Below, piece after piece: positions 1,402 to 47,700 of a stretch of DNA of 64,000 bases. The notes beneath the pieces are model-generated. The model was not told the origin of the DNA and ran no database searches. It saw only the letters and a list, made by a program, of their open reading frames with translations. Origin of the DNA: Branchiostoma floridae (lineage: Eukaryota > Chordata > Leptocardii > Amphioxiformes > Branchiostomatidae); NCBI RefSeq assembly GCF_000003815.2, contig NC_049980.1:948344-1012343 (forward strand). The letters run 5' to 3'. How positions within the stretch are numbered: position 1 is the first letter of the stretch; every line of letters begins with the position of its first letter. The translations under genes and the position numbers were made by a program.

Positions 1402-1950
1402 ATGGCACTCATTCCAAGACTGATGCAGTACAACAGTCTCCGCAAGGTGATGCTAACGGCAGGCCGATCGATAACGCCTCCTAGCGGCAGCATCGCCCAG
1501 TGCAGGGAACGGTCATCGCTAGCTTCCCCGCTCATGAGATCCATGCTGGTCCTGAAGAATTCGCCTGCATGCCTTCAACGGTTTAGCGAGGCAGAAGCCG
1601 ACTCCTACTTCTTGGATCTTGAAGATGGGATACCAAAAGACCAGCGAGACTCTGCTCTAAAGTTGTATGCCGAGACGCTAGAGAGCGGAATATTCCGCGG
1701 CCATACTGTGTACGTGCGCCTCAGTGACGTCAGTGACGAAGCCAGACTACATAGAGAAGTAGACGCCCTGTGCCACCCGGACCTGACGGGCTTTATTTTA
1801 CCTAAAATCAGTTCTTCTGATGACGTCAAGAAAACTGACGAAATCCTCGCCGAGTTGGAGAAGAAGAACGACCTGCTTCCCGGTCACTGCAAGATGATCC
1901 CCGTAATTGAGAATTTAGAGGGATTCTTTCACGCACCGACCATTGCAAAG
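1402..1950 (+). CDS. Fusion gene exon 1: presequence and first half of CitE domain
   Basis: Codes for residues 1-183. A strong acceptor (TTCTTTTGTTCACAG) ends at 1388, so the ATG at 1402 in the context AACAATGG is the likely start and a 5' non-coding exon probably lies upstream. An in-frame ATG at 1294 would fall inside that intron. The donor AAG|GTAAGG follows 1950 (phase 0). Confidence 0.85.
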
Positions 1951-3198
1951 GTAAGGCCTAGGGGAAATGTTGTCGTTTAGAGTACGGGCCTGAATGAATT
2001 AGGGTTGATAGGTAGAAATTCTCTTCTGTCGTAGCTACTTTAAATTTTAATTTCAGATTACAGCCGAAGATGTCCTACAATCATTTTGTAACACTGGTAT
2101 TTTCGACACCATACAGAAATTATATACAGATACACTAGAAAGGTCGACATTTCCTTGGGAGCAAATACGGCATATTTAAATTAAATCCATCTTCATCCCC
2201 ATGCGAAAATGTATTGTTCCATATACACCTGCGCGGATGAAGTGAGTAAGTCGTCCCGAGGTATTACATAGGGGCATGGCCAGTATTGAACCTGGGACCT
2301 ACACACCACACCGATGCATCCTCCTACGCACGGTCCCCAATGGCTAGCTAACTCCAAGCCTATTGGGGCCCTGCTATCTCATGCCCCACCAGCCGTTACT
2401 GTGATTGTCACCACAAACCAGCTGTCAGCCAATCAGAGAATAGGCATTTCTTGGGCTTTCTGTTTACGAAAGCCATCTCGCAAAGGCCGCTCGGAAGCTG
2501 TCAGCCAATCATGTTACGTCTTACATAGCACCATCCTCCTACGCCCGATCCCCAACGGCTGACTGCCCACTTTTGATATAAGGGTAAGCTCATTAATATT
2601 TATAAGCAGGGCGGCCAGGAACTGGTCTGAGTGCGTCAGATAGCAGAGGTGACCACAAGGAGTATCGACACGACTGTGGTCCCTCTGCGTAGGAGAATGC
2701 ACCGATGCCATACAGATACAACTAAATGGATAACATTTTCAGGCATCCCCGCGTTTGGCAGGACTCTGCTGTGGAAACGCGGATTTTGCTGCGTGTTTCC
2801 AGCGACCACCTGGCAGCCCGATTGAACATTCCTTAGAGCTCCGAGTTCTACAATCAGCTAAAGCGGCGGGGATAACTGCACTAAACGCAACCTCCTACCT
2901 GGACAACTTCCCCCGTCTTGAACGTGACGTCACGCGATATAAGACGCTCGGATTTGATGGTATCATACGTCATATATTTGTTACCGTCTTGAAAATGATG
3001 GTATTTTTTTTGGTGTGTCTGCTTTAATCTCCAAGCAGATCCTACAGTGGTATGAGATACTTGATACGCCAATGAGAGTATCTGATCAAGCTTGCCACCG
3101 GGGCAGCCTTCGCTCCGTTGCCAGTGTGTCAAATACTTTATGCCGCCAAAGGATCTGCTTTTAGATTATTCTTATGCTTTGGTCTTGATTTGTTTGTT

Positions 3199-3247
<49 letters not shown>

Positions 3248-6200
3248 ACGTGTGTTGGGGTGTGCGTGTGTGTGTTGGTGTGTGTGTGTGTTTGCGTGCG
3301 CGTGTGTTTGCGTGTATTTGTGCACGACTGCATTTGGTTTAATGCATATTCAATAGTTAATGTGATCATATTCTTGTCAGCCTGGCGAAATCACTCATTC
3401 TTTTCAAACCTGAAACCGTTACACTTATCCCGGTCCAGCTCCATCGATGTCTGTATTTTCACAGGGGTTATAGTGCTTCATCCGTCGCTGGTGCCGTTTG
3501 TAAACCAACTCTACACCCCTACACGGCAAGAGATAGACTGGGCCGAACAAGTCACGGCGGGAGTAAGAGTCTACCAGCGATCAGCCCAGGAATACAGACA
3601 GTTCATCGGGCCTCCTCATCTTCCCAGCGCCTCTCACATCCTGGAGACGCACGGTAAGATCAAGGTGTTGGAATCATCTGTAAGTAGAAATACCAAACCT
3701 AATGAAGATATGGGCACCGTTAAGCCATTACAGCGGAAAGGCGGACTCTCAGCAAACTCCATAAAAGGAGGAGAATGGACCCCCGGTATCGTACCCGTGA
3801 CCTTGGATTCGTCATGGCGTGCAGCCTGGAACTCGTCATTTCTCAACACTCGGAGGCTGAACAGTGATGATGTGGCGGCAAGGCAGATGGGTCTTCCGGG
3901 AATCCAACCTCCTTTCCATCTACTGAAGACCTTGGCGATGTCTTTAGCTGTGGCAAAGTAAGGCTATTATTTTAAATGCCTTTACATGGGATAACCATTA
4001 AGCGTACTGGGACTGATTAATGTTTTTTTGCTGTATCTGTTATAGTGTCTTACGATAGCCTGATTCATAAATTGTCAGGTGTTATTCAGAATGAAGCAAA
4101 ATAAAACCCTTACGATTCCGGAGACGTTTCGTTTATGAAAAGCATAATCTATATAAGGTCTATAAGAAGTCATAAAAGACATAGTCCGAATGCATATGAA
4201 ATACAAAAAAAAGTCTTACTAATAGACAGTTAACTTACAAATCTTATTTTACAATGATCCACTTAATGTACAATTTTCGTGGCAAGACTAAAATATTCTG
4301 AGTTATAAGAGCAAATGTCTGTAAGGATCAAACAATGGTGGCAAAGGTCACAAAATAGATTTGGCTCATATTTTGCACAGTGATAGTACTTGGTCCACAA
4401 CCCCTCAAAATAGCTTTCTTTTAGATCAAAACTCCTTGTTGCCATGGTAACGGGCAAACAAAGTTTTCTGGCCATTTTTCCCAATTTTCGCATCTCAAAA
4501 ACACAGAAATCAGCATATTTTACGGCACTGTCTCGGCAACACCTTTAAACCTATCATCAAAACAAAACAAATCTAAATAGACCAACATTTTGGCTTTTTA
4601 AAAATTGTTGTGAAATTTCCAAAGTCGTACATTTTCGTTCTTGGGCAGCCTGAAAACAGTGCAATGTTTCAAGCTTCAAAAAAATTTGATTTTTGGCCCA
4701 ACTTTGTAACGCTATAAGTGCCAAGCTGGTAATTTTTTTGGCTTGAAATTTGTACCATATATAGATCATTAGAATACAGTCAAACCTGTCTATAGCGGCC
4801 ACTCAAGGGACTGGTCAAAATTGGCCACTATAGAGAGGTGGCCACTATAGAGAATATGCTAATAATTAATTGACCACAAGCAATAACTTACACATGGTTT
4901 TAGTACCCACTGATCTTTATTCACATAATACAGTACTGTACATGTACTGCAATGAGTTTTACACTATATGTATTAAGAAAACAAAAGCTATAAAAAGTTT
5001 TAATTGTTCTACAGTTGATATTGTCTGAAGAGACCGGTATCGTCATATTTCTTTGATATTTCGTCTTGTATCCTTTGATACTTCACCGTCCGTGTGTTTT
5101 TTTTTTTTTTTTTTTAAATTTTTTTATTGATTTTCAAAGAAACGAAACACATACAAACACATGCATGGCACGTAAATCGTAAACAGAAAGAGACATGTGT
5201 GAACCTATAAAACTGATAAGTAAAACACAGTGAACTTAATAAGAAATGAAGTTCAAGAAATTATACCCCAATTACCGTTGCAGTAGTACATGAGACATAT
5301 CAAATTATATATAACCAATCAATTTACCCCATTTACCAATATGCTTTCTAGTTTTGTTTAGTCTTCTGGCGATGATATTTTCTAATTTAAAATAATATGA
5401 CATATATGAAATAAATGATTCTAGGCTAAGATGTCTGTTGCGGTATTTGAAAATGAAATGTTTACCTAACAAAATAACAAAATTGGACAAAGCTGGAACA
5501 CGATCACTTATAATACCAAATAACACATTAAACAAAGTAAGATGTAAATAATTCCCAGTGTGCTTAAAATACCAATCCTGTACCTGTATCCAAAATTTTG
5601 TAACAATCCTACAATCCCAAAATAAATGAATGTCTGATTCTTCCTCTTCTGTGCAATAACTGCAAAGTGATGTATCTATTACCCCCCACCTGTGCAATAT
5701 CTTATTGGTAGTTAGAAATTTAAATAGTAATTTGTATTGAAACATGCGTAGTTGGGAATCAATGGTAACTTTATAGGGTAAACTGTATACTATTTTCCAT
5801 TGTATGGGTGTGTTTAAGTATTCCCCCCACGAGTATTGGATCCGGTCAGAGATATCCCATAGCCTGGCGTCAGACATGAAAAATGAATACAAATGTTTAT
5901 TAATATTTGGAAATTGAAGCCAGTTTATGTTTCTACACGCCGGAACACAAACCCTTAACTCTGGTGACACCTGTCGTAGTAAATGTTTCCAATTGCTAGG
6001 AATTGCTGATATGATTTGATTATACTTAAACTCTGCACATGTGTCCCCAAATTTTAATAGTAAGTCTTGGAAAGTTAAAAGCTTATTTTGTGAGTCTAAA
6101 ATATCATTTACAAAGACTACCCCCCTGTTGTATAGTGACATCAAAAAGCATGGTTTTCCGGATATGCGAATGTGTGAATTTAGGCAGATAGGCTGTTGTT

Positions 6201-9200
6201 TCACTTCCTGTGCAGTCTCTGGAGGGCGTAGTTGAAACTTAAGCCACGCCTGTATTACATGCCTAAAGAATTGACTGATTTGTGCCTTTTCTTTCATAAC
6301 TATTTCGAAATCACGAAGTGTGAGTTGCGAAAAGGGAAATACATTAGTTGTAAATAAAACACTTGAGCAAAGTAGCAGTTTAGAGCAGAACCATTTATCA
6401 TTATGGTACAATTTGGGCACCCAAGAAGCCTTCAGGGTAAGATCAACAGCCTGCAAGTTCCTAAGTTTGAGACCGCCATATTCGTAGAGATTATAAACTG
6501 TTTTTCTTTTCACTCGTTCTGGTCCACCACTCCACAGAAACTTAAATATTTTTTTCTCAAACCTCTCGAAGAAAGAGGGAGGTGGAGAAGGAAGGGATTG
6601 AAACAAGAAGATAAATTGCGACACTATCAGGGAATTAATTAGAGTAACCTTACCTAGAAGAGAAAGTAGTTTTCCTTTCCAGGGATTTAAAAGCTTATCT
6701 ATCTTTGATTCTTTTCGGTCAAAATTCAAAGCAACAATATCTGATAGATACTTGGGGATATGGATTCCTAAAATGTCTACAGGGCCATCTGTCCACTGTA
6801 ATGGTAGTAAGCAAGGAATAAAGAAGTTGGTGTCTCTTAACGAACCTATTCGTACTATCATACACTTATCAAAATTTGGCACTAAACCTGACAATGTTGA
6901 GAACACTTCTATGTCTTTTACCAAGGCATACAGGGTACCAAGCTTTGGAACCAGGGGAAAATTGGAATCGTCGGCAAATTGTAAAAGTTTTGTTTCAAGA
7001 CCATATGTTGTTAAACCCTGAATTTCAATATTACTCCTAATTTTCATAGCTAGTAACTCCACACCTAAGACAAATAAGTAAGGCGAAATGGGACATCCTT
7101 GTCGGACTCCACGGTTAAGGGCAAACGACTCGGAAATATAACCATTATTGATGATTTTGCTAAAAGTGTCTTTATACAGAACTTTTATCCATGTAATAAA
7201 TGAATCACCAAAACCGAAATACTTCAAAACCTTAAAAATGAAATCATGTCGAATTTTATCGAAAGCTTTTTCAAAATCTGCACAAAATATCAAACCCGGC
7301 ATTTCATTTCGGTCATAGTATTCTATGATTTCTAAAAGTCTCCGTATAGTGTCACTAATGGATCGCCCTTTCATAAAGCCAGTCTGATCATACGAAACAA
7401 GAGATGAGATAACATTCTTCATTCGGAGGGCCAAACATTTAGACAGTATACGGTTATCACAATTTAATAAGGTCACCGGGCGCCAGTTTTTTATATGCGA
7501 AGGTTCTTTGTCTTTTCCCGTGGAATCCTGTTTAAGTAATAACGTGATGAGTCCAGTTTTCTGTGTGTCTGATAAACAACCAACCTGAAACGAATGGTTA
7601 AAGGAAGCCAACAGTGGTTGTTTTAAACTTTGAAAAAAGACCCTATAAAATTCTATGGGAAGGCCATCTAAACCGGGTGACTTACCAACAGAAAATGACT
7701 CAATAGCCTTTTTTAGTTCAACTTCTGTAATAAACCCTTCACAGCTATCGCGCTGACTATCAAATAAACTTACTGGTGGAGGTTGCGGAAAGAAAGGCAT
7801 AAAGACATCGCTGTCTAGAGACATAGGGGGGTCTTTGAAAGTGTACAGGTCGGCATAAAATTTTGTTTGTTGTCTTAAAATTTCTTCCGGATCAATTACC
7901 ACTGAACTATCTGGCTTTACAAGTTTTGTCATATTCTTTCTTACATGTCCTCTACCATTTAAATTCATAAAAAATTTCGTACACTTTTCTCCTTGTTCCA
8001 TCCACTTGGCTCTTTTGTTCATTATCAGATTATTAGATTTTGTTTGATAAACTATTTCCAACTCCTGTTTTTTACCCTGTAACTGGTCAAAAATGTCGTC
8101 ATCCGGAGATGAGTCTAGTTCTTCTTCAGCCTTTTGATCTCATCTATAAGCAATATTTCAGTATTTCTATTTTGTTTAAACTTCCAAGATGAAAACTTGA
8201 TTAGGTGACCACGCACAGTGCACTTAAAGGCTTCCCATACGATGTGTGGGTTAGCTGATCCCTCATTAAAGAGGAAAAATTCTGTAATAAATTTTGAGGT
8301 TTCTTTCACAAACAGCTGGTCACTCAACAAATCACAATTAAGTCTCCAAAAGCCAGGCCCCTTTGGTGTAGTAGATAAGAGTAAAGAGATACTAATTAAG
8401 GAATGATCCGATCTTAAGCTATCTTCAATTTTAACATTTTCTATAGAAGGGGTTAATGAAAAAGAAGTTAAAAAATAATCAATGCGACTGGCCTGAAGTC
8501 GGCGTCTCCATGTATAGCGGACGGCTGTTGGGTGGTGGTATCTGTAAATGTCGACTAAGTCAAGGTTGGCACAAAGGGAGTTGATGGCTTGAAGGCAGTT
8601 TGGATGATAATTAGAAGTTTGGTGTCCAGCTCTGTCCAGGTTAGAATTCAATGCTGTGTTGAAATCCCCCACTATTATAGTATGTAAACCAGAAGATGTT
8701 AAAGACTGTACATTGTTTTCAAGATCGACAAAGAAAGATGGATTATCAGTATTTGGGGCATAAATATTTGCTAAAGAAAAACGGAATAGGTCAATAGTTA
8801 AATCCAATAACATCCATCGTCCTGAATTATCGTTCTGAGTTTGATGGACAGTAAAGATTAAATTTTTCTTAAATAAAATAAGAACACCCCTGCTATTACT
8901 TAAACCATGGTTAAATAGAATCGGACCCCCCCCAATCTGATTTCCATCTCTCCTCATTCAAAGGTGTAGAGTGGGATTCTTGCAGGCAATATATATCATA
9001 AGACTTATCCTTTAGCCATGTAAAGATTTGGTTGCGTTTCCTGTGGTCGCCCAGACCGTTACAATTATAACTGCATACCTTAAGTTTTGGCAATACCATG
9101 AGACCTTTGAAAAGTAATATAAGTTGTCAAATATTTTGATAAAAAGGGGCGTCCACAGGATGCAAAACATAAGTTGGGCAAAGCTAATGTACACAAAGTA

Positions 9201-12200
9201 GCATAATTCTGTTGCAGGTAATTGGGGTCACTTAAACTACATAGCATAGGTAACACTTCAAAATTAGGTATAAAACACATGAAAACATAACACATCGTGC
9301 CATGTAGTAATAACGAAAATAATAAATAACAGAACATTAGAACAAAACAAAATAAAGCTCAACGGAACACAAGAGTTACAAAGCTTGGTGGCCCTTCCAT
9401 CTCGTTGGCTCCGTCAAAAGTATCGCATTTGTTAATTCCACGGAAAATTGTGAAGATAAGAAAATTGGACCAATTTTACACTTCAATATTATAGAATAGT
9501 AGCTCTGTTTCTGAAAGTGACGTTTTGTAAGCTAAATCACCTTTCTTCTGAAACTTCATTTTGAACTCACAACTATCAGTCATTAGTAAGAAAATTGGTC
9601 CACTTCTCAAATGTACATAACGAAATCACCACTTTAGTGTAAATCAAACCGAACTCATATCAACGTACCGTGATCATCGTCTTAATATAATAAAGAAAAG
9701 TAATTATGGGAATCGGTCCGATTCAAAAACTAAGAATAGCATAACATGATCACCACTTTGGCATAACTCAAGCAGAATAGGAAATCATAAACAAAATCCC
9801 ATGATCTCTGTCTTGGAGTAGAACAAAGTCAGAGCTCAAAACAAACAACATAAATATGGGAATCAGTCTGATTCAAAACTCAAAACCACATAACATAATC
9901 AACATTTTGGTAAGTGGAAACAAAAATAACATGATCATAAGTTTTCTATAATCCAACTAAGTCAGAAATCAAAATAACAGAATATAACATCTGGATATGA
10001 ATGAACACAAGTAGGAGAATCGGGCCGATTCAGAACTCAAACAATACTGTAACAAAAGAAAAGAACAGGCAGCAACGGAATACACCGGCTCGGCTGTGGG
10101 TTACGCAAGGTATGTTGACATTTCAAGTCAATTAAGTGCACGCTGATCAGCACGTGTTCAAACGAATGCTTGCACCTGTCAAGCCTGCAAGCCAATTCCA
10201 AAATTTAATGCCGCCGCATGTTTCTTACTTCCTGTGACTTACAAACAAGACAGGAAGGTATTCTGATTCCTATATACTAATACTGTCTTCACATTCATAA
10301 AAAACACACCAGTGCCTCAAAGGGATGAGATGTTCGTTTAATAATTGCAGTCACATTTTAAACAACATGTTCACCCTCATGTGTTCTTTGTAGATAGCAT
10401 AAGGTCAATCGCATCGGCGCGTTTCTTCTCTTGACCGTTCACAAGTAACACTGCGTACGTTGCCTTAGGAGGCACCCAAATCGAAACCCTAGTATCAGTA
10501 CCTTTGGCTTTTGCTGCTTCAGCGTCTCGATCGGGGACAAGGCTGGNNNNNNNNNNNNNNNNNNNNNNNNNNNNNNNNNNNNNNNNNNNNNNNNNNNNNN
10601 NNNNNNNNNNNNNNNNNNNNNNNNNNNNNNNNNNNNNNNNNNNNNNNNNNNNNNNNNNNNNNNNNNNNNNNNNNNNNNNNNNNNNNNNNNNNNNNNNNTG
10701 TAACAATTTATTTAGAAATTTTTGTGATGTAAATTAACCTTAGCGATAGTGTATTAGAACGTAACTTTAACACAATTTACCTCCGTAATATAGGTGTCGT
10801 CTATTGACCTTATATGACCTCGTTTGTCAGCGGGTATGGGTAGCACCAGTTGACGAAGTTTTGTTTCGAAAATAAGTCAAGGCGGTTTTAAATCCGGCGT
10901 AGGGTGACGATACGGCCGCTGTATATGGCCGAACGCGTGCCGAAACATAGATCAGCGGTCCGCGTGGCCGTAAACGGCAGTGTTTTTGTACCTGCGGGAC
11001 CGGAAATCGTGTGGCCGTGGCCGCGTTGGACAGGTGGCCGCTAAGCCTATTTCTTAATCATTACAAATCCAAGGGACCGACAAAAAGTGGCCACTATGGG
11101 CAGGTGGCCGTTATGCAAAGGTGGCCGCTAATACAGGTTTGACTGTATCTATCAAATGCATTGTTGCAAAGTTTGGGGTCTTGTTTGGTTGTCACGTGAC
11201 TGTCCCCTAAAGTAGGCCACTTTTTGTGTTTGGCGAAAATTGTGAACTTTAGCCATGTTCAACGCACGCTACGTGACGAAGTAAACAAGGATTCTTATTC
11301 AACTTCTGATCAAATGTACATCTATGTATTGTCTATCAAATAAATGCTTGTAGAGTTTCGGGTCATGACGTTTAGTCACGTGGTTGTCCCTGAAAGTAGG
11401 CCATTTTTTTGCATTTGACAAAAATTGTGAATTTTAGCCATGTTCAACGTACGCTACGTGACGAAGTAAACAAGGATTCTTATTTAACTTCTAGTCAAAT
11501 GTACATCTATGTATTGTCTATCATATGAATGCTTGCAAAGTTTCGGATCATGACGTTCAGTCACGTGGTTGTCCCTGAAAGTAGGCCATTATTTGCATTT
11601 GACGAAAATTGTGAATTCTAGCTTTGATCAAAGTACGCTGGGTATCAAAGTGAACAAGAATTCTTATTCAACTTCAAGTCAAATGTACATCTAGGTATTG
11701 TCTATCAGATGAATGCTTGCAGAGTTGCAGATCGTGACTTTTAGTCACGTGGTTGTCCCTGAAAGTAGGTCAAATTTTGCTTTTGGCCAGAAATCACCAT
11801 ATAGGGCTGTAGTTAAATCTGTCGAATTGGGGAACTGAAATACTTTACTGGCATGGCACTGACTCCGATCATGTGTAGCCCTTAACATTGTCTGTTGAAT
11901 GAGTGTTAGTAAGGCTTGGGGTCGTCTTTCTTTGCGGTGCAGTTGCTCCCTAAAGTAGGGCAGATAGTTAGCTAAATGCTGTTAGGAGGTTCTGTTACTT
12001 TAGAGAAGATGCCTCTTGAACAGTTTCTTTCTTTTAACATTGTCAATGTCCAATGCATATCATATTGGTACTACAATGACCGATAATGGGCATACAGTGT
12101 TAAATTAAAGCGATGACTCTGTTATAATTGTAAATATCAATTTTGATAATGTAACTAAGATGTCGTTTTAAATTCAGCTATGTTCTATAATGCGCTAAAA

Positions 12201-15200
12201 TTCACAATATTTGTTGAGCACATAAGGTGACCTGGCTTCAGGGACAACTATGTGACTAATTGTCATGACCCGAAACTCGACAAGCATTTATTCGAAGAAA
12301 GAAAATTAAGAATACAAAGATGTACATTTGACCAGAAGTTTAATCAGAATTCTTCTTAATTTCGTCACGTAGTGTAGCCTGGTATCCAGCTATATTATAG
12401 CTCCCGATCGCGAGTCTCTTCTGTCCTCTTCGCAAATGGCTCGTTCTCATTTAAATGTAAAAATGCTGTCGCCTGCTTTTGCGACTTGATTTGCAGCAAA
12501 TTTTAGACAAAATCACAGGTTCCTTCATTTTTCCACAATCCCTGGAATGTTTTCCAAAAGATTCATTTTGGTTGATGGCTTGGAAGATTATCTTAGCCAC
12601 GGGTGGAATTTCACCCCCGTAAAAAATGGTTGTCTCCTGATAACAAACGAAGAATTCAAGTAGTAGCCAAAAATGTAACAATTCAGTTCCCAGAATGATT
12701 GTTCGGTAGATGAAACCAGCTGAGCAGGCCCTTTGCCCGATAACGCCAGATCGGTACTGTCACTGATCTTGGAGGCTGTGTGAGGTGGGTTATTCCTGTT
12801 GCCAAATTCGGTAACAAACGTTACCACCACCAGTTTGATGGTTGCCAGTTGCCACTGTTATATTATCCACGTATAAGACAAGAAATGACCGTTTTTGTGA
12901 CGCTGCACAGTTTTTCTGGCTTTCTAAAGAAGCAAGGAAGGATTGTTGACTGCCATTTGTACCCCACCTAAGGCCCCCTTTCCACTTGACGGCGCTCTCA
13001 CCGCGCTCTCGCTGCGATGGAAAATTGGCCAGAGCGCCGTGAGAGCGCCGCGACGCCAGAAAAACTGCTCAAGTGGAATCACTCCGGCGACCCCAGCGCG
13101 CTCTCACCGCGCTCTTCCAAATTCGAGGTCGCAGAGAGAGCGCCGTGAGAGCGCCGTCCTAGTGGAAAGGGGGTATAACAAAATGTTGTACAGAAATGAC
13201 TGTAACGAACGTTAGCATTGTTCGAAGCTTTCTAAGCTTTCTATTTGACCTGGTGTAAAAAAGCTGCCCACTTTTTAAGTGTCCCTAGGGACATCCTCTT
13301 ATACTTAAATGATGTAGTCAATCTGGCCATTATTTTCAATTCAATGAGAACGAGTGAAATATGTATCTGCGAAGAGGACAAAAGAGACTCGGGAACTATA
13401 ATACGGCTGGATACCAGGGTACACGTAGCGTACTTTGAAAATTCACAATTTTCGTCCAATGAAAAAAGTGGCCTACTTTCAAGGACAACCGCGTGACTTT
13501 ACTTCATGATCTAATTTTCTACAAGTATTCATTTGACAGGCAATACATAGATTTACCTTTGGCAGGAAGTTGAATCAGAACTTTATTTTGCTTCGCAATC
13601 TAGCGTACGTTGAACATGGCTAAAGGTCACAATTTTTGTCAAATGCAAAAAAATGTCCTACTTTCAGGGACAACCACGTGACTTTACGTTATGATCCGAA
13701 ACTCTACAAGCATTTATATGATAGACAATACATAGATGTACATTTGATCAGAAGTTGAATAAGAATCCTTGTTTACTTCGTCACGTAGCGTACGTTGAAC
13801 ATGGCTAAAATTCACAATTTTCGTCAATTGCAAAAAAATGGCCTACTTTCAGGGACAACCACGTGACTGAACGTCATGACCCGAAACTCTACAAGCAATT
13901 ATTTGATAGGCAATACATAGATCCACATTTGATAAGAAGTTGGTTTAGAAATATATTTTACTTCTTCACGTAGCGTACTTTAAACATGGCTAAAGTTCAC
14001 AATTTTCGCCAAACACAAAAAAGTGGCCTACTTTAGGGGACAGTCACGTGACAACCAAACAAGACCCCAAACTTTGCAACAATGCATTTGATAGATATTC
14101 TAATGATCTATATATGGTACAAATTTCAAGCCAAAAAAATTACCAGCTTGGCACTTATAGCGTTACAAAGTTGGGCCAAAAATCAAATTTTTTTGAAGCT
14201 TGAAACATTGCACTGTTTTCAGGCTGCCCAAGAACGAAAATGTACGACTTTGGAAATTTCACAACAATTTTTAAAAAGCCAAAATGTTGGTCTATTTATA
14301 TCTTGTTTTGTTTTGATGATAGGTTTAAAGGTGTTGCCGAGACAGTGCCGTAAAATATGCTGATTTCTGTGTTTTTGAGATGCGAAAATTGGGAAAAATG
14401 GCCAGAAAACTTTGTTTGCCCGTTACCATGGCAACAAGGAGTTTTGATCTAAAAGAAAGCTATTTTGAGGGGTTGTGGACCAAGTACTATCACTGTGCAA
14501 AATATGAGCCAAATCTATTTTTTGACCTTTGCCACCATTGTTTGATCCTTACAGACATTTGCTCATAAGATCTTTGTATTATTGACATTGAGATGTGCAT
14601 TTTATTACATCATTTTATATCCAAGACTAAAATATCCTGAGTTATAAGATCTTTGTATTATTGACATTGAGATGTGCATTTCATTACATCATTTTATATC
14701 CAAGACATTTAAAAACAACGCATATACAATTCACACTATGGTTCCCAAAATGTTCGGAGGTGCCAATAAATGGACTAGCAGGGCTCTACGGGTTTGTATG
14801 ATACATTGAAGTCCTTTTGTCATTCCCTGACTATTTTTATCCAATAGATCTAGATAGCCTACCATACAAAGAAATGATCATAAAATTGACTACGCATTTT
14901 CCTAATCTTACATTGAGAACATTCCGATGAGCTTACGACTCCCTACAACCTCAGGTCGTCTGAAACAGCTCGATTCCATTTGGGGACTTACAACGCTGTA
15001 CAACTGAGACCGGTGGCCGAAGGAGACACCATCAGAGCTTACTTCTCTCTGGACAGCGTGGCTGAGGCAGGAAGCAGCGGCAGATACTCCGTAGTGACCA
15101 GCTCTCACGTCCTCGTCAATCAGCTTGACCAAGCCGTGTTCCGGGTGGCGAAGAAGACCATGTACCCAAGGCTGATGACTGGGGGGTTCCACTTTGCTAA

Positions 15201-18200
15201 CAAGGTAGATTTTGAATTACAGTAGAAACCTCATTTGTCAGCTTATTTCGTGCAATTATCCGGGTGGTACAAAAATGCGAAATTACCTAGCTGGACTGCA
15301 CCGGTTTGGAATGCTGGGATTTTGAATTGTTGTTCAGCTGACGAAATCAAAGCGAACTAAAATGTTTGTGTACATTTTTGAATGTATTTCTTGCGAAAAA
15401 ATGATTGACTGTACTTAGACTGTTTTTTTTTTTTTAAATTTACAGACGAATTTATCTTTCCCTTTTAAACGATCATTCTTATTGCATCTCCACAGGCAAA
15501 GACCAAGGCCCCAGCAGACTCCGAACTTCGCAGTCACATTGTTCAGAACGCAGCAGTGCTTAGAGACGGACAAATGATGGAAAGCCTGCCTTTGATGCCG
15601 ACTCAGGTGCGACTTTCTATTTTTCAAACATAATTACGCCAACTTAACCACGCATGCTGGGGCACAATTGACTTTGATAACTCACAATCATCAAATTTAC
15701 TTCAAATTTGAAAACAGCGCCCTCAAAAAAGGTCGACGTTAGGAACTCTAGGGCTGATCTTGAAAACAATGTTGACGGTTTGTGGGTGATCATTAATGTT
15801 TAGCCTTATAACCTAAAATCATCTTCTTTCACGGGCTGCTATATTTTCATTCTTAATTAGTGATAGAATTCTACAGTAATAGTTGATTTTGTAATTAGAA
15901 AATAACACCCGCTTCTGGGGTTGACTGCCAGTTCGAATGAATGCTTGACGTGTATCTATTTAATACTTTATACTTCATGCTTGGAATTCTGAGCTTGGAA
16001 TGAATGTGTTACGTATAGCTGTTTTATCATTCGTTAACCCTATCCAGATTGGGCTTTTTGGGCCTTCCCTGGACTGGGGGGGGGGGCTCATTCGGCCCCC
16101 TTCGTATTTTCAAAACAGCTTACTGTATGATCCCCAAATTTGCAATGTTTGTTGTGCTTGTCGAGTTTTATAATTCCTGAAATTTTTATATCATTATGAC
16201 GTAATATGACGTAATTATGACGTCATTAATTGATTTTTTTTGGCTGAAACTTGGAATTTCCATAATACCTAAATTTCTCACTCAAAAAGTTACCAATAAA
16301 GGTTTCTTATCAAAATTTAAGTGTTATAAGACTTCTGTTGTCAAAAGATGACGCAACGACGTCAAAATGACGTCATAGAATAACGTCATATGTAGTTTAG
16401 CTATCCGCCATCTTGGATTATCAACCTTAAATGTCCTTAAGATACCTTAAGATACAATTTTTTCAACATATAACGCTAAAACGCCATGAAAATGGATCGA
16501 AAACGTTCATATGAATGTTTTCTTTAAGAAAATACAAAGTATTGATGAAATCCGAGTGAAAATCAGCTGGTTATACTTTTCATCATGATATTGTCGGCCA
16601 TCTTGGATTTTGACCAATTACGTCATCTCATTAGCATAATTTATGAATATTGAATTATAAATGTTCAACTAAGATGTGTTAGATATTAAAGATATATGAA
16701 AAGAAGTTTAGTCTAGCAAGAAAATCTTAATATCCCATTGTTTAAACCAAAATCAGTGATTTTTGTAAAATTTGCCTTTCAGAAACCCGTTGCCATGGCA
16801 ACACGAAAAATTATAAACTTATTCCCTTTTTTGTAAATTGTTGCCAACAATATTCTAGGTTAAGTCACCAAGTTTGGTTGCTCTAACACAAGCCGTTTGG
16901 GAGCTATAGGACGTCAAAGTTGGCGCAGGCACTTCAAGACCCCCCCCCCCCTCCGTCTGGATAGGGTTAAGTGTAGCTATTTCCAGGAGTTTTGCTTCCA
17001 TTGAATTTTGATATGTTATCACACTCTCTACATAGTGGAGTTTTATACGTCTGCATCTTATTCACAGCTATACGTCCATCGAGTGGTCAAGTCATTTAGG
17101 CCGGGCGAATCCATGGGACTCTCCAACCTGATACGAGTTACCAATGCTCATCACTTTAACACAAAAAAGGTGTGTTCATATACTTCATCACGTGTAGACT
17201 AATACTATAATATTATATAAGTAATATTGTCTAGATTGATTTTGGCATCGTGGTAGCCAGTATGCTATCGTTACATTCCGACCCGAGGCCCGACCGAGCA
17301 GTTTTGGGGAACGGGAAGTATGATACAAACGACAACCAAAGTCCAAAAACGTACCAAAAAGAATAGGGCCTACGTTATGCATATTCATTAACACAATATT
17401 TCATTTTTCGTATCCGCGAATATCCGGGAGATGTGATCCTACCGTTATCAAATTTCGATTTTTTTAAAAGTCTTTCATCTTTACTGTTTTGTGCCTTTAT
17501 TAGTTCTCTTCTGAAGCAATTGTGGTGCCCGGTCCCTTCGTTCTGGCGGCAACTGTCCACAACGTAGCTGATGAGTTCGGTGACATCCTGTATGAAGAGG
17601 TGGTGGAGACTTCTAATGTCAACCCAGTGAACCAGGTAGAAAACATCTCCCGTAATGTCACTGCTGTAATTATTCAAAATAATTAGTAATATTGCAACTT
17701 CTTGTAAATCATGTATGCCTACTCCAAATCATACTTTCCAGAAATTGACTTGTTTTTACAGAACAACCTAAACATTTGTCAATTTGCCAGTTTCAGTCAA
17801 CCTTCCGAATAAATTCCGATTTTAATTTTATAACGATATCTTTCATTGTACGTTCACGTTCTATTGGGCTTGGTACAGGCATACAGATACTATTCATAGA
17901 AATTAAAACATATTCAATACGTAATAGAAAAATAGACACTTATTTTTGTCTACTTTTTTCAGTTTGACAAGAAACGTAATTATTACTTTACCTTCTGCAG
18001 GGTTTAAGCTCTGCCTGTTATATCATGCGTGTGTCGGCATCTATGCCTTAACATTGCTTCTCCTCATGCATAATACGACAATATCATTTTGTACTGATGA
18101 TGAATGACTTTATCTTCGTCTCTATTTTACAGAAGGATATGATTGGATCTGTCAGCTTTATCCACAGCGTTCAGCAACTGATAGAGAATCCCGGTACGTT

Positions 18201-20560
18201 GCTTGAATAATCATAGGTTTGGCTATCAAATACACAACATGTTTGCCCTAACTGTACCTCAGCAGCATGCCTTTGCCTTCATAAAAGGTAGACCCTTTTT
18301 GAGACCTTAAGGTGGCATCTCGCTGCACTTTGGGCACCGATGCGATACTGGGTTCGTTCACTGCGGCATGGACTGTCGTGTTATTTTCGCCGATAATAAA
18401 TAGTTAATTTTTAAAAAATATTTTAGATATTGTGTTATACCCAAAATTATCACTCAGAAGACAACAAAATACACTATACGTATTCATAAGAAAATTCGTT
18501 CTTTATGTCTAAAAATTCGTTGAGTAAGCTTTAGAACCCCGCAGTGCCGCACCGGTGCCCCAAGTGCAGTGAGATACCAACTTTAGATGCAGTGGGCTGT
18601 TGTTAACTGTATAGTGAAAGTTATTTAGCCGGCTTTTACCCCCCCCCCCCTTTGGCTCAGGTACCCATGTTTAACTAAGGCCTTAGTCATGTACATCGTA
18701 CAATTTACCGGTATGGGGATTTCAGGCGCGGTAATAACGCCGTACGTCTGGGAAAATCGGGCGCAATATTGAATTTAAGTATATCAAGCCATGGTCACAA
18801 ACAGGCGTTTCATCACATTGTTTGGGGACCTAACAATAAACGTTTATTAGTAAATCAACACTTTCTCACAAAATAATCTACAAATAATCTACAATAATCA
18901 AGTACAACAATCTTGACTAATGGTAAAAAAGTTAAAGAAAAAAAATGACAACTTCGGGTTCGAGCCGAGAAGCATCACGAATACACCTAAAGTGAGGGGG
19001 GTCTGTTATATATGTTTAGACAGTAACATAAAAGGCGACGACCGGTACCACCCGTTTATAGGAATACGAGACGGAAAGTAGCATAGATGCCATAACTTAG
19101 ATCAAGCAAAGGCGTATGCGGCTCTCCGGCCACTATGTGTGACACCCTGAGCTAGTGGCCAGTGAGCTACTCTTATGGGAACCAGTCCAGGGTAAAAGAA
19201 ACCCTGGCAGGCGGAGAACTGCCTTTATAGACTCACTCATGCTCGACATACTGAGCAGCATACCTAAACTAAGATCTCGGCCCCGGCGTTCAACATAAAA
19301 TCTGACAGGACGGCCCGGACGCTCACGATGTGTCCGCGGCCGTTTCTGACGGCAATTGACGCGTCCAGACGGTTTGAAACGCTATCAGATGATGTTCGAC
19401 GCCGACGTCCTGGCAATTTCGGACGCTTGAATTTTCACATAGGCACTGATGGTGGAGTGCAATATTCCTGCGAAGACATCTGATATTCTCGACTGACTGA
19501 CTGACTGACATTATGTTGAAATAAGAGAGTTCTGATGGGTTGTAGGGTAACGACGAAGGAAGTATGGTGTGAACGTTTCATCTCAGGCCAGTTCTTTCCT
19601 AACTATACCGTGTCCCGTATGTTTTTCTGTACCAGATCTAGAGGAGGTGACCGTACGTACCCTGGGGATCAAGAACATGGACGTCGATGAGTTGATGGAG
19701 AGAGAAGTTCCGGTTAGACTTTTCTCCGGAACCAACGTGAGAGGCGCAGACTATGAGAAGGTAAAATCTTATCTACTGTTTAAACTATGACGTGATACTT
19801 TAATAGTGCGCAATGTGCACAAGACAATTCGGCCATGTTGATTTGACGATATAGATGACAAACTCTGGGAACTCCAAAACTGTTTGTCAAAAAAGTCACA
19901 ATGAAATCTAAGTGGTCAGCATGGTTAAACAAATGACTAACCACAAAGTATCGTAAACCGCATTTTAGTTTTGACAACTTCTACTTTGACTCTGGAATTG
20001 ACTTCGGCACTGAACGTCGCAGTAGTGTCCGTTTTCCGATATTTACTTTACAATTTACGGCATATATTTGCAGCTTTTATGTGCTATTTACAGTATGGTT
20101 GAAAATATTTTCGACGAACGACTGCTGATGCTATCCATGTAAATGAAAACAAGCTATTGTGCTCTATTGATTACTTGGTAAGTGTTTTATGACTGCTGCC
20201 ACGTCACTCAAATGAAAATGAGTAGCTAACTTCTCAGAGCTTCTAACTGGAGTTCGGCTGCATGGCGGCGAGAAACAGAATTTGAATCTCTAAGAAAGAT
20301 GTTTGATAGGCATCAAAACATAAGCAGGTGAGAGGCAGTATGGTTGTGTTAAAAGAAAACTCCAATACCCTATGATCTACTAACCCAATGAATTCATTTT
20401 CGAAAGGATATATAGTTTTTCTTTTCTCTCCCAGATCTGTATGGAGGAGTTCCCCCTGCTCTACAGAAGGATTGCTGCCCAGGTTCTGTGGAAGTTTCTC
20501 CGTCTGCGGCCTTCTGCAGCCAAAGAGGTTCCTGTGGGGATTCAGCCAGAATTCTCCTGA
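1402..20560 (+). CDS. CitE/CLYBL-like lyase fused to a double hotdog (MaoC/HTD2-like) domain, 10 exons, 721 aa
   Basis: Spliced CDS: 1402-1950, 2743-2959, 3465-3957, 14955-15204, 15496-15606, 17068-17169, 17504-17635, 18133-18193, 19636-19760, 20435-20560. Every junction is GT-AG, the phases match at all nine junctions, and the sum is 2166 nt ending in TGA. Residues 1-45 are Ser/Arg-rich with almost no acidic residues and resemble a mitochondrial presequence. Residues ~46-300 are CitE/CLYBL-like: LDLED (71-75), VYVR (103-106), FILPK, VIEN (E170), GNAD (D197), GFDG then LHP (260-262). Residues ~379-503 form a first hotdog half ([12 protein letters not shown]) and ~541-690 a second ([13 protein letters not shown]). 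Known family roles: CLYBL is a mitochondrial citramalyl-CoA lyase making acetyl-CoA and pyruvate; bacterial itaconate degraders pair a CitE-type lyase with a MaoC-type itaconyl-CoA hydratase. Inferred role: bifunctional hydratase-lyase for C5 dicarboxyl-CoA. The exact substrate is not provable from sequence. Confidence 0.88.
2313..2703. mobile_element. TIR-bounded element with CCAAT and TATA-like boxes
   Basis: GCATCCTCCTACGCA at the left reappears inverted at the right as TGCGTAGGAGAATGC. Inside are GCCAATCAGAGAATAGG, a TATA-like GATATAAGG and the block CATTxATATTxATAAGCAGGGCGG. A diverged relative sits at 32325-32505. It lies in intron 1 of the fusion gene. The class is undetermined. Confidence 0.5.
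2743..2959 (+). CDS. Fusion gene exon 2: CitE domain, metal/substrate region
   Basis: Codes for residues 184-255 plus one base of codon 256. The acceptor is TTTTCAG. It carries GNAD, the position matching the family's G-G-E-D acidic site, then a helix rich in Ala ([12 protein letters not shown]) and the GFD of the conserved G-F-x-G turn. Phase 1 end. Confidence 0.85.
3195..3320 (+). repeat. (TG)n microsatellite in fusion-gene intron 2
   Basis: Long TG/TGTGCG run. It generates spurious Cys-Val open frames on + and Thr-His frames on -. Confidence 0.95.
3465..3957 (+). CDS. Fusion gene exon 3: end of CitE domain, linker, start of first hotdog
   Basis: Codes for residues 256-420. It begins with the rest of G-V-I-V-L-H-P, matching the family's IHP turn, and a typical helix ([15 protein letters not shown]). 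A linker of about 80 residues follows, then the opening helix of a hotdog ([19 protein letters not shown]). Because one exon spans both domains, the fusion is not an artefact of joining two neighbouring genes. Donor AA|GTAAGG. Confidence 0.85.
5305..9099 (-). pseudogene. LINE ORF2: AP endonuclease and reverse transcriptase, two frameshifts
   Basis: Endonuclease: SYNCNGL and CLQESH (frame 9099-8911), then [21 protein letters not shown] and SDHSL (8957-8115). The frame breaks near 8945 and again near 8115-8061. Reverse transcriptase frame 8061-5305 (918 codons): [31 protein letters not shown], the FADD box (LQFADDS), and a C-terminal CSYC..H..C knuckle near the end. Both domains read as L1/Tx1 clade. 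The two frameshifts mean this copy is dead. The reverse transcriptase frame itself is long and open, so the insertion is not very old. Confidence 0.92.
9360..10080 (-). repeat. Degenerate tandem repeat in LINE 5' leader
   Basis: About five diverged units of roughly 120-150 bp share 'ggaatcggtccgattcaaaact' and 'cataacatgatcaccactttgg'. This is typical of LINE 5' regulatory leaders built from monomers. Confidence 0.55.
10384..10546 (-). pseudogene. Open remnant beside the N gap, possibly of the pogo-like element
   Basis: On - the stretch stays open and reads [18 protein letters not shown] and then [12 protein letters not shown]. It runs into the N gap on one side and the LINE on the other. 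It may be a remnant of the host element's protein. I do not recognise a family. Confidence 0.25.
10547..10698. other. Assembly gap
   Basis: 152 N. Any frame drawn across it is meaningless. Confidence 1.
11148..11830 (+). repeat. ~190-bp tandem subrepeats of the foldback arm
   Basis: Four or more units carry TCACGTG(G), 'gtccctgaaagtaggccatt', 'gccatgttcaacgtacgctacgtgac' and 'tgtacatctatgtattgtctatca'. The same units occur inverted at 13430-14095 and 12230-12370. Confidence 0.8.
12375..13421. mobile_element. 9-bp-TSD element with TA(G/C)CCTGGTATCCAGC ends
   Basis: Left TAGCCTGGTATCCAGC and right (reverse complement) TACCCTGGTATCCAGCC. The inverted arms continue about 70 bp ('gaactataatacggctgg', 'cctcttcgca', 'ctcgttctcat'). 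Flanks are CACGTAGTG (12366-12374) and CACGTAGCG (13422-13430), a 9-bp duplication. It sits inside the foldback element. 9-bp duplications are typical of Mutator-like elements, but no transposase is present to confirm that. Confidence 0.7.
12970..13181. mobile_element. GC-rich inverted-repeat miniature element
   Basis: CCCCCTTTCCACTTGACGGC at the left pairs with the reverse complement of the right end (CCCCCTTTCCACTAGGACGGC). The interior is a string of GAGCGCCGTGAGAGCGCCG-type repeats in both orientations. It is nested inside the 12375-13421 element. No clear target duplication. Confidence 0.6.
14955..15204 (+). CDS. Fusion gene exon 4: first hotdog half
   Basis: Codes for residues 420-503. 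It supplies the G completing the split AAG codon left by exon 3, eleven kilobases upstream. The pattern [12 protein letters not shown], then S-V-V-T-x-x-H-x-x-x-N-Q, then V-F-R-V-A is the strand arrangement of MaoC/HTD2 proteins. Confidence 0.82.
15496..15606 (+). CDS. Fusion gene exon 5: inter-hotdog linker
   Basis: Codes for residues 504-540, polar and probably a linker between the two hotdog halves. Acceptor CTCCACAG, donor CAG|GTGCGA, phase 0 on both sides. Confidence 0.75.
16038..16966. mobile_element. TTAA-flanked element with CCCTATCCAGA ends, fusion-gene intron 5
   Basis: Left CCCTATCCAGATTGGGC and right (reverse complement) CCCTATCCAGACGGAG are flanked by TTAA at 16034-16037 and 16967-16970. 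A G run near the left end mirrors a C run near the right. TTAA targets occur in piggyBac and Kolobok groups. The interior has several TGACGTCA-like sites and no coding capacity. Confidence 0.65.
17068..17169 (+). CDS. Fusion gene exon 6: start of second hotdog
   Basis: Codes for residues 541-574. It includes [11 protein letters not shown], which sits where MaoC hydratases carry G-D-x-N-P-x-H-x-D. Here Asn and His positions survive but the preceding Asp is not visible. Acceptor TTCACAG, donor AAG|GTGTGT. Confidence 0.8.
17504..17635 (+). CDS. Fusion gene exon 7: second hotdog central helix
   Basis: Codes for residues 575-618. [19 protein letters not shown] is the long hotdog helix, followed by strand [15 protein letters not shown]. 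This is the best family match in the hotdog part. Confidence 0.85.
18133..18193 (+). CDS. Fusion gene exon 8: second hotdog strand
   Basis: Codes for residues 619-638 plus one base. [10 protein letters not shown] continues the V-x-x-G-D-x-I-x-x-x-S-x-I strand typical of the fold. Donor CCCG|GTACGT, phase 1. Confidence 0.78.
18309..18584. mobile_element. Miniature inverted-repeat element, copy 1
   Basis: Ends are aaggtggcatctcgctgcac and the reverse complement of gtgcagtgagataccaactt. Subterminal 'ggcaccggtgcggcactgcgggg' blocks occur at both ends. A second copy with the same layout is at 53065-53314. It lies in fusion-gene intron 8. Confidence 0.65.
19636..19760 (+). CDS. Fusion gene exon 9
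   Basis: Codes for residues 639-680: a strand ([12 protein letters not shown]) then an acidic/basic stretch ending in DYEK. Acceptor CTGTACCAG, donor AAG|GTAAAA. Confidence 0.78.
20435..20560 (+). CDS. Fusion gene exon 10: C terminus
   Basis: Codes for residues 681-721 and the TGA stop. Basic, helix-forming C terminus ([15 protein letters not shown]). It ends in EFS, so no peroxisomal SKL-type signal is present, which fits a mitochondrial rather than peroxisomal location. Acceptor TTTTCTCTCCCAG. Confidence 0.8.
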   Translation: MCMEEFPLLYRRIAAQVLWKFLRLRPSAAKEVPVGIQPEFS

Positions 20561-43684: not shown

Positions 43685-43977
43685 CGAGAGCCTGTAGAAT
43701 GGCCAGGCTCCCTGTTGATTGTGGGAAACCATTCTAACGGGTAGGTCACGGCGTCTATGTGTCGCCGGGTCCAGGATTTATTTCAACTCAAAGTTGCTGT
43801 GTTTTTTTAACGGGGCCCGGCAGGGTCCAAATATAGCCCGGTAGCCGCAGACCCAAGAGACCACGTAGGGGACACGCCCGAAAATGCCAATACACACCAG
43901 CCCATGGCAGCCCATTTGGTTTTTCTATTGTGACCTAAGCATAACTGGGATACAGGGAAAAGTCCCACCACACTTAC

Positions 43978-44721
43978 AATCCATTTCTGGACGAGAGTGA
44001 ACAGCCTGCCGCCTTCCCTCAGCTGCAAGATGGCGTTGTTGAGCGGCTCCTTGAGCGGGGAGCCCGGCCGTAGTCCGACGGCCTGGGGCCTTGCCGTGAA
44101 CCTGTTGCCGTCGTGGATGGACAGCAGATCGCACGGCTTCTTGCTGCTGTAGAATCGGGTCATCGCCGACTCCGTGATGAAGGCGACCTTACCCTCGCGG
44201 GCGAGCCTTACCCCCTCTATCGTAGAATTCACCAAGAGCGCCTTCTGATGGATACGGTTGTACGGTACGAAGGGAGAGGTCTTGAACATGTACTCGGTTA
44301 TTCCACCGCCGAAAAGGGCCGGACGGATCTCGTCGTTTTCCGCCAGATCTTCGAACGACTGGACGGGGACCATGGGGGAAGCGGCCGGGCCGGAGATAAA
44401 GATGCCCACGATGGCGCCCGTGCACAGGATGAGCGTCCAGACGATGAAGTTGAACCAGAAGACGACGAGAAACCGTCCGGAGAAGGAGCGGGGCGAGTAG
44501 TCCACCCCCTGCCAGCTCATCGCGCTGAAGCAGATCCACAGGCTGTGCCCGAAGGTCGACAGTCGGCTCGCCTCGCCGACCTCTGCCGAGTACGCCCGAC
44601 TCTCGTACGGACTGACCCGAATGATGACGAACAGGACGATGCCGGTGATGAGAAACGACGCCATGACCATAAACCATACAGGCATAGTAATGACGGCTCT
44701 CCACCATTCCCTGCCTACGAT
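43978..44721 (-). CDS. Glutamate receptor exon: M1, pore loop, M3 and S2
   Basis: 248 codons, acceptor TTTTTTTTCAG, donor ATT|GTAAGT, phase 0 at both ends. High GC compared with flanking introns, as expected for coding sequence. It ends LREGGRLFTLVQKWI just before the usual linker to M4. The opposite-strand frame over the same span is a shadow. Confidence 0.9.
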
Positions 44722-47700
44722 CTGAAAAAAAAATATCATTTTACCTTTGATTATTTTTCGCAAATTAAACTATGTGTCATTGATCGTCTGTTAGCTTCCC
44801 CAGGGCAATTCTGACTGGTTCGCATTGCTGCATGCTGCCAAAGGTGTCACTGCTAACAGATCTATATGCAGACCCGAAAGTAAAATGTTTACAGATATAC
44901 AATACATTAAAAGCCGCTTAATTACACGACCCATTTGCCAGTGCATTCCGTGCAATTGTCCGAATGGTGCAACAATGCGAAGATATTAAGCTGGACTGCA
45001 CCACCACGGGATTTTGGGATTTCGTGCAATTAACAGAAGTGTGCAATTGTCCGTTGTGCAATTAACTGGCTTCCATTGTACAGTAGAAGCCGCTTAATTG
45101 CATACTCAATTCGCCAGTGCATTTCGTACAATTGTCCGAATGGTGCAACAAAGCGAAGCTGCTAAGCTGGACTGCACCACCACGGGATTTGGGGATTTCG
45201 TGCAATTAACAGAAGTGTGCAATCAACACTGCAAAGTATGCCTACTACGCCAGGACAATTCCTGAATGGAACGGCCTCTCCGCCCACATTGTCGACAGCC
45301 CCTCACTGGACACATTCAAGAACAGGTTGCTGTCATCGCATACGTAGTCCAGCCGCTGCGCCTCCTCCATCCGCGTGATATTCCTACCAGGAAGTTTGCG
45401 GATTTCGAACTAGAACTAGAACTAGAACTGGCTTCCACTATAGTAGTTAACGTGGCGTTAACAATGTAGCTACAGCTATAGCTGGGCAACATGAACCAGT
45501 CAGAATTGCCCTACACAGACGTTTACCGAAACGTCTGTTGAATAAAACACTGGGATTTAGTTATTCAGTGACTGATCAACCTGATAGAACTATTCACGGA
45601 TACTCTGTTTTCAGAATAAAGTTGAACTGTAATTTCCAACACAATTCTTTCTCGAAAAATGGACAATCCACTGCTTCCGTGACGTCACGTCATGTAGATA
45701 GCGAGCGTAACTCCGTGTAAGGCCATCGTCACATTTTCATTTCCGGCCGGGATGTTTACGGAAACTAAAAATTAAAGTTTAAAACTAAAATGAATATGAA
45801 CAAGGCATGCTATTAGTCCAATTTCTTGTGTAGGAAATTACAGTTCAACTTTAATCGGAAATTTATTCGGAAATGTCTTCTACCAACACGGAGGAACTTT
45901 CAAGTCGAGACACTCTTTTTCATATATCTTAGCTTGGATCATACAACCAACCTGTCTTCCAGCTACATGATTCTTGGTCCAAACGTGAAGTATTAACCGA
46001 TATACATTGGTAGTTAATGTGTAGCTACACCTATAACTGTTGGGCACTGTGAAACAATCAGGAAGGAGGAAGGTGACAGACAGTCACCGAACGTAGGTTA
46101 TATAAAACACTTCATTATCTACAAAGACTTCGGTTAGTACGTGTTATGACACCCTGATGTGACTATTTACGGATATTCTGTTTTTTGTACGTGTTAGCCA
46201 TGAAACTTATATCAGACCTCTCCTCCAGGTTTCTTGACCATTATCTCCAGACGTTCGTCCAACACGACGTTACTGAAGTCGATGACCGTTTCCCTCACGG
46301 AGGCGATGGTCAGCCCAAGAGCCATGTCCATGTCCTGTGAAAACAGAGGTCATGCTAAGGTCATAATTTGCAAAGGAGCCCTTGGTCTATCCTAGATGTA
46401 CCCCATCCCAGGAGCGCTTCAGGGATAGGTCTGCATCCCGGATGTGCATCTATCTATCCCAAAAGTGCTTCTGGGATATCCAGAACACGTCGCAAGCGAA
46501 GGAGTGCGTTCTTGATGTCAAAGATGCCCTCTGATCGGGGCACACTCTTGATAAACATATCCAGTATATGCTCTTGTGACCTGCGATGTGTTTTGGATGG
46601 AGCAAATGCTTATTCATTCAGGATATCCAAAACGTGCTCCTTCGATTGCGACGTGTTCTGAATATCCCAGAAGCGCGTTTGGGATAGAAGCACATCTGGG
46701 ATGCAAACCTATCCCAGATGTGCTTCTATCCCAGAAGCGCTTCTACGATACAGGACTATCTGGGATATAACAGCCCCGCTGAGAAGTTGTTGCATCCTAG
46801 ACTGTCGTCTATCCTAAAAGCGCTTCTAGGATAGAAGCGCTTTTAGGATAGACCGGCATCCAAAATGTGATTCTATCCTAAAAGCGCTTCTAGGATATCC
46901 AGAACACGTTGCAAGCGAGGAGCGCATTCTGGATATCCTGAATGCGCTTTAGTTGGAGCGCATTCAGGATAAGCCGGCGTGTTTATCCAGAACGTGCACT
47001 TGTGGGAGGAGCTTAGTGTCTTAGGAGGCGGAGACTATCTTGTACGTGATTTTTCTTAGTCAAAAGGCCGCCATCTTTGTTCTCCGAACGCAGTCACTTT
47101 TGGATTTGATTGTGATAGAAGATCGCATATACTTACACCAAATCAACGTAGTTGGGGGGACTACGTGGGCCGGTCTAACCCTCACATAATCAGGCAAAAT
47201 CTAGGTTCAGCGGTTGCTTTATAAACTGCGGATTTCGATCACGTAGATTACGGCAGGTGTCGCGAGGTCGAAGCAAGGACGTTATATCACGTCATTGGTC
47301 GAAGTAAATATGACTTTGGTGTAAACAATCACCGGAAGTGACCGCTGCCATTTTCTCGCGACGTGTTGACTGCATGGACCCCACACACCGAGGTAGTATC
47401 GATATCTCCGGTTCGATAGTTCGAAACAAAACCAGAAACTGAAATTCAGCAAACCATTAACAAAGTCACCCTGCACAGGAGAAAGCAGATGTCGGCCTCC
47501 TTCGACAGGAGCGCATTCAGGATATCCAGAATGCGCTCCTTCGCTTGCGACGTGATCTGGATATCCTAGAAGCGCTTTTAGGATAGAAGCACATTTTGGA
47601 TGCAGATCTATCCCAAATATGCTTCTATCCCCAAAGCACTTCTAGGATATCCAGAATGCGCTCCTTCGCTTGCAACGTGTTCTGGATATCCCAGAAGCGC

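Follow-up and report, generated by a model that had tools for sequence, protein, structure and literature searches.

In the lancelet Branchiostoma floridae, a predicted gene fuses a domain of the CitE/CLYBL superfamily to a hotdog of the MaoC/Mch type, a genuine and new combination of families that are themselves known. We favour the view that its product is a repurposed CoA-thioester protein (probability about 0.5) over working bifunctional enzymes and over a full pseudoenzyme. In the window, by which we mean the whole stretch of 64,000 nucleotides analysed, a single frame of 721 residues extends between 1402 and 20560 over ten exons, whose borders are GT/AG and whose phases fit together (Table 1). 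The N-terminus encoded by exon 1 is positively charged, with the first acidic residue at aa 36, and was judged by eye to be of the mitochondrial type; the fusion protein is probably located in mitochondria.

Table 1. Features of the lancelet fusion gene, with positions in the window
Feature	Position	Strand	Content
Exon 1	1402..1950	+	aa 1-183; first half of CitE barrel; same exon in paralogue
Exon 2	2743..2959	+	aa 184-255, CitE barrel; holds Mg-ligand position Asp197
Exon 3	3465..3957	+	End of CitE barrel and lid, linker, start of hotdog 1
Gly304 codon	3608..3610	+	Lid Asp/Glu site, from alignment
Asn388 codon	3860..3862	+	His site of single MaoC hotdogs, from alignment
Intron 3	3958..14954	+	10,997 bp; minus-strand LINE-type retroelement; assembly gap 10547-10698
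Exon 4	14955..15204	+	aa 420-503; most of remaining hotdog 1
Exon 5	15496..15606	+	Connector, poorly conserved
Exon 6	17068..17169	+	C-terminal region; HHF here, HHL in paralogue
Exon 7	17504..17635	+	C-terminal region; also in paralogue
Exon 8	18133..18193	+	C-terminal region; also in paralogue
Exon 9	19636..19760	+	C-terminal region; also in paralogue
Exon 10	20435..20560	+	Carries stop codon; also in paralogue

We searched the genome sequence (513,431,437 bases in 431 contigs, with the window on contig C2) and found a complete second copy of the fusion at C2:3488129-3498147 on the minus strand, ~2.5 Mb from the window gene on the same contig. This paralogue encodes 723 residues in ten exons, its junction phases equal those of the window gene at every join, and 540 of 719 aligned positions are identical between the two proteins. 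Its intron 3 measures 377 bp, compared with 10,997 bp in the window gene, and the only gap in the sequence retrieved for this copy falls before its exon 1, outside the gene. An artefact in which the reader, or the assembly bridging the gap within the large intron 3 of the window gene, had merged two separate genes is therefore very improbable. We reject it, because the paralogue carries the complete set of ten exons, in order, in a gap-free gene with a short intron 3, and hotdog 1 itself is divided over exons 3 and 4. An earlier note, made from the sequence of the window, had described one 721-residue frame with matching phases, had placed the end of the CitE domain and the start of the hotdog together in exon 3, and had argued against two neighbouring genes. 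All three points hold: the borders were checked and the joins recur in the paralogue, the match to the Mch profile crosses exons 3 and 4, and the second copy repeats the entire architecture.

Intron 3 of the window gene also contains a LINE-type retroelement on the minus strand (5305-8957), in which one ORF of 944 aa encodes a reverse transcriptase (RVT_1 2.2e-31, zf-RVT 2.8e-8) and another of 280 aa an endonuclease; the intron of the paralogue has no room for such an element. Elsewhere in the window, stretches of the ionotropic glutamate receptor type were observed on the minus strand at 43807-44769 and 51440-51856 (Lig_chan 1.5e-20, Lig_chan-Glu_bd 4.9e-10).

Between the two copies, whole-gene dN/dS by the Nei-Gojobori method was 0.31, well under 1, and the regional values were 0.305 for the barrel, 0.32 for hotdog 1, and 0.23 for aa 541-721. 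The ratio was higher in places, reaching 1.05 for aa 1-45, 0.69 for exon 5 (35 codons), and 0.42 for exon 1, and this departure from uniformly low values counts against our favoured reading. Exon 3 had the lowest dN among the ten exons (0.059). Synonymous divergence was uneven, with dS ranging from 0.33 to 1.69 by exon and falling to 0.19 in the linker, which may reflect gene conversion of parts of the copies.

The lyase half matched Pfam HpcH_HpaI at aa 50-262 (E 1.3e-18; 67.5 bits versus a curated cut-off of 25) and the NCBIfam models citE (6.3e-30) and RipC_Ccl (1.2e-23), with both NCBIfam scores far under the equivalog cut-offs. Its relatives in the PDB include malyl-CoA lyases, Rv2498c (6aq4), and CLYBL (5vxc). 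The catalytic set given in PMC3832036 consists of Glu and Asp as Mg ligands, a Glu and an Asp that hold metal waters, an Arg, an Asp that holds this Arg, and a lid Asp that should protonate the enolate once the C-C bond is cleaved. The same paper describes the Arg and the lid Asp as conserved across the superfamily, save for Glu in malyl-CoA thioesterase relatives. The D320A form of CLYBL is described as catalytically inactive in an excerpt of PMC12724605.

We compared these positions in a 42-row alignment of 38 CitE rows, two fusion rows, and two CLYBL rows. The 38 rows, which served for both the residue count and the tree, were drawn from 104 CitE ORFs (all E < 1e-8) by taking those outside loci L034-L113 whose matched stretch reached 180 aa or more and every sixth of those inside (13 rows). 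Six catalytic residues (D72, E74, D75, R106, E170, and D197) were kept in both fusion copies. At the lid acid site, both copies have Gly304, while all 40 other rows are acidic, with Asp in 23 and Glu in 17; the CitE rows linked to Mch carry Glu there. The lid position is well aligned, because the adjoining PHL is retained and the hairpin before it is shortened. Since the lid acid is replaced by Gly in both copies, the usual cleavage step of the fusion lyase is most likely disabled or changed, as judged from the alignment.

For the other half, a domain search of the 721-residue model, which had placed HpcH_HpaI above its cut-off, left the hotdog hits of single sequences under the curated cut-offs: MC_hydratase was found at 0.043 and 0.017, and FAS1_DH_region at 0.044 and 0.0036 at best. 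For Pfam PF19315 (Mch), the score was 14.7 bits versus a cut-off of 26.5. Profile comparison gave a clearer result. The first hotdog (aa ~365-492) matched a profile of 89 bacterial Mch ORFs with an hhalign probability of 96.8 and an E of 2.8e-10. In HMM scoring, the two copies reached 40.4 and 39.1 bits against the N-terminal hotdog of Mch, scores that none of 1000 shuffles attained for either copy, and 32.3 and 38.6 bits against a single-hotdog MaoC profile (shuffles as high, 0/1000); only the Mch profile is largely independent, because the single-MaoC profile was built from hits of the lancelet profile. Against the C-terminal hotdog of Mch, the scores were 3.2 and 2.6 bits, values reached by 18 and 5 of 1000 shuffles. 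The first hotdog is thus homologous to the N-terminal hotdog of Mch, and for this first hotdog the similarity to MaoC-type families that the earlier note had proposed is borne out. Mch differs in being a separate gene in bacteria and in having a C-terminal hotdog that is unrecognisable in the lancelet protein.

Other searches with the hotdog part yielded little. The NCBIfam model of haloarchaeal 2-methylfumaryl-CoA hydratase matched the first hotdog weakly, through the C-terminal part of the model (0.055). A PDB search with one sequence gave no match. The best E obtained with the pair was 0.52, and of the chains listed, two that lie over the first hotdog at 0.59 and 0.88 look MaoC-like in the alignment. 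A tblastn search against plasmids returned seven records (best E 0.9), and a scan of the genome_contigs collection with the lancelet pair found no relative.

The double hotdog module described previously was only partly recovered, in that the CitE domain and the first hotdog were found but the second hotdog was not. Against three hotdog profiles, the last 216 residues scored like shuffles (1000 per comparison): the C-terminal part of one copy gave 0.1, -1.0, and -1.1 bits (77, 202, and 244 shuffles as high), and that of the other gave -1.3 bits (322 shuffles as high) or no score. No second-hotdog signal was seen in this part by hhalign and forced alignment either, as a reversed control scored equally high. 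Because these residues score like shuffles, what points to a second hotdog is their length and position.

The His of the NPxPLH-type motif is catalytic in MaoC single-hotdog hydratases. Both fusion copies have Asn388 at this site, where the single-hotdog rows have His (15/15) and ten Mch rows have Tyr (8) or His (2). The absence of His from the first hotdog could by itself still allow hydration, because the first hotdog of Mch mostly lacks it too. By analogy with Mch, hotdog 1 may be non-catalytic, in which case any catalytic hotdog would sit in the C-terminal part.

We then considered how the bacterial relatives of the two halves are arranged. A profile of the two lancelet hotdog copies matched 20 of 299 Pseudomonadota genomes (E up to 0.01), and at 14 of these 20 loci a CitE ORF lay in the ~1.5-kb flanks. 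None of 30 PF01575 loci in a first control had one; this control used the best place per genome, out of 60 genomes, and so favours other MaoC types. A second control took the next 40 listed PF01575 places, which come in score order rather than at random and from few genomes. Five of them were lancelet-profile hits, of which four had a CitE ORF and the fifth had none; at the remaining 35, a CitE ORF was present in three cases. Pooled, the difference was 14/20 versus 3/65 other MaoC loci (Fisher p 5e-9), and it persisted at 8/14 versus 3/65 (p 1.5e-5) when a tight clade contributing seven of the 14 loci was counted once. The relatives of both lancelet halves therefore tend to go together in bacteria, in agreement with the pairing of hydratase-type and CitE-type genes on which the earlier note had drawn.

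The Mch loci, in their Rhodobacterales neighbourhood, had a similar arrangement. A CitE ORF was found somewhere in the locus for 84 of the 89 Mch ORFs, a count that refers nearly entirely to one order, uses flanks of up to 6 kb, and includes at least three places counted twice. Among 12 Mch loci viewed, 11 had the CitE ORF upstream of Mch on the same strand, in the order seen in the fusion, and one had none. In annotated plasmid regions, a CoA ester lyase was near the MaoC gene in six of seven and absent from one; these regions were hand-picked, five having been found with an Mch query, and three more regions were unannotated. Two Rhizobium regions had acyl-CoA carboxylase genes beside the MaoC and CoA ester lyase genes. 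Operons of MaoC and CoA ester lyase, of the itaconate or leucine type, resemble the fusion in that the same two families adjoin, but they consist of separate genes; among those compared, the single hotdogs keep the His (15/15) and the lyases keep the lid acid. No prokaryotic fusion was seen among the 20 listed hits from the 299 genomes of this one phylum, whose open frames were at most 385 aa long. In locus L121 (229-2627), two consecutive single-hotdog MaoC-like ORFs precede one that was judged by eye to resemble MmgE/PrpD; the pair is possibly a separate-gene form of a double hotdog.

The same genome contains two tandem CLYBL-type genes (C12:7566000-7585800), each with a lid exon carrying Asp. 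The region also holds a further lid-like stretch with Tyr at the lid position. In the 42-row tree, the C12 CLYBL row, which represents one copy pieced together from exons and lacking a short stretch, grouped with human CLYBL at 100/100. The fusion pair did not group with animal CLYBL in this tree and formed its own branch of 2.9 changes per column, with no named subgroup adjoining and with long-branch and composition warnings. Because CLYBL-type genes are present separately, the fusion is not the CLYBL of the lancelet. It shares with CLYBL the CitE-superfamily TIM barrel by profile, a basic N-terminus, and the Mg2+-site and Arg residues, but it has no lid Asp, continues into a hotdog module, and stands apart in the tree from the CLYBL of the lancelet. 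Because the fusion sits on a long branch beside no named subgroup, the tree does not reveal its substrate. From this tree we claim neither descent from CLYBL nor horizontal transfer as the origin of its CitE domain.

In our reading, the gene encodes one protein that combines a lyase domain of the CitE superfamily with a hydratase module of the MaoC/Mch type. Their bacterial counterparts are often encoded by adjacent genes and work in succession on one short-chain acyl-CoA, first by enoyl-CoA hydration and then by aldol cleavage. In the repurposed protein, the TIM barrel would form an oligomeric acyl-CoA/Mg2+ platform with putative binding of CoA and Mg2+, and hydratase activity, if any, would require the C-terminal half, perhaps as a highly diverged second hotdog. 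Tentatively, a chordate might have fused a hydratase-lyase pair into one protein that later lost the lid acid of the lyase, with one of two outcomes: either the hotdog half would provide the missing acid from across the domain interface, making a composite active site, or the barrel would have turned into a Mg2+-dependent holder of acyl-CoA serving the hydratase. In malyl-CoA lyases, the lid acid is contributed by the neighbouring subunit. Some points weigh against a repurposed CoA-thioester protein. Both copies retain the other six catalytic residues, for which a non-catalytic barrel has no obvious need. The lid hairpin is shortened, and an acid close by, such as Glu298, or one from the hotdog half might replace the lost Asp. 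The C-terminal hotdog is assumed.

The earlier note had proposed a working enzyme in which itaconyl-CoA or mesaconyl-CoA is first hydrated and then split into acetyl-CoA and pyruvate, with the two sites coupled by the fusion, perhaps as a detoxification of itaconate that would protect B12 metabolism. The retained CitE catalytic residues and the adjoining of both families in bacteria favour this proposal, and itaconate production and activation are conceivable in the lancelet because its genome has an MmgE/PrpD-family gene on C5, perhaps itaconate-making, and CoA-transferase-III genes on C2 and C10. One-enzyme itaconate breakdown is nevertheless doubtful, because a key catalytic residue of the lyase is lost in both copies. 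In addition, sequence comparison does not detect the second hotdog, the first has Asn388 instead of His, and the genome already has CLYBL-type genes, so we consider this proposal unlikely.

A full pseudoenzyme, in which neither half is catalytic and the protein has a regulatory or structural role, would explain the residue changes in both domains and the long branch in the tree. However, the metal-site and Arg residues are kept in both copies and dN/dS in the barrel is 0.305, and we regard a complete loss of catalysis as quite unlikely.

An enzyme with both activities but another substrate seems less likely again. It could convert 3-methylglutaconyl-CoA to (R)-HMG-CoA and cleave it, as in leucine breakdown, or convert mesaconyl-CoA to beta-methylmalyl-CoA with subsequent cleavage or thioester hydrolysis. 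The mixed bacterial settings, such as the carboxylase genes in the two Rhizobium regions, would fit such an enzyme. So would Rv2498c, which according to PMC6689899 cleaves both (S)-citramalyl-CoA and (R)-HMG-CoA, and the Glu lid of the Mch-linked CitE rows, a feature tied to malyl-CoA thioesterase relatives in PMC3832036. The same residue changes count against it, as does the long branch beside no named subgroup. The title of a 2025 paper in the reference list of PMC12460153 refers to CLYBL repairing malyl-CoA.

A fusion as such is not unusual in the lancelet, because, as reported in PMC4284660, lancelets gained domain combinations at rates above any others then known among metazoans. Within the open-licence literature, we found no paper that names CLYBL together with either amphioxus or Branchiostoma, none that pairs Branchiostoma with "citrate lyase beta", and no description of a composite active site or an acyl-CoA-holder barrel for such a fusion. 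Here, an animal has joined two families that bacteria often keep adjacent for the breakdown of short acyl-CoAs. The change in the lyase active site is precise and testable, and it would show if an enzyme of the CitE type is able to function once the lid acid is gone. The fusion also adds a second CitE-type gene family to be weighed in chordate itaconate and B12 metabolism.
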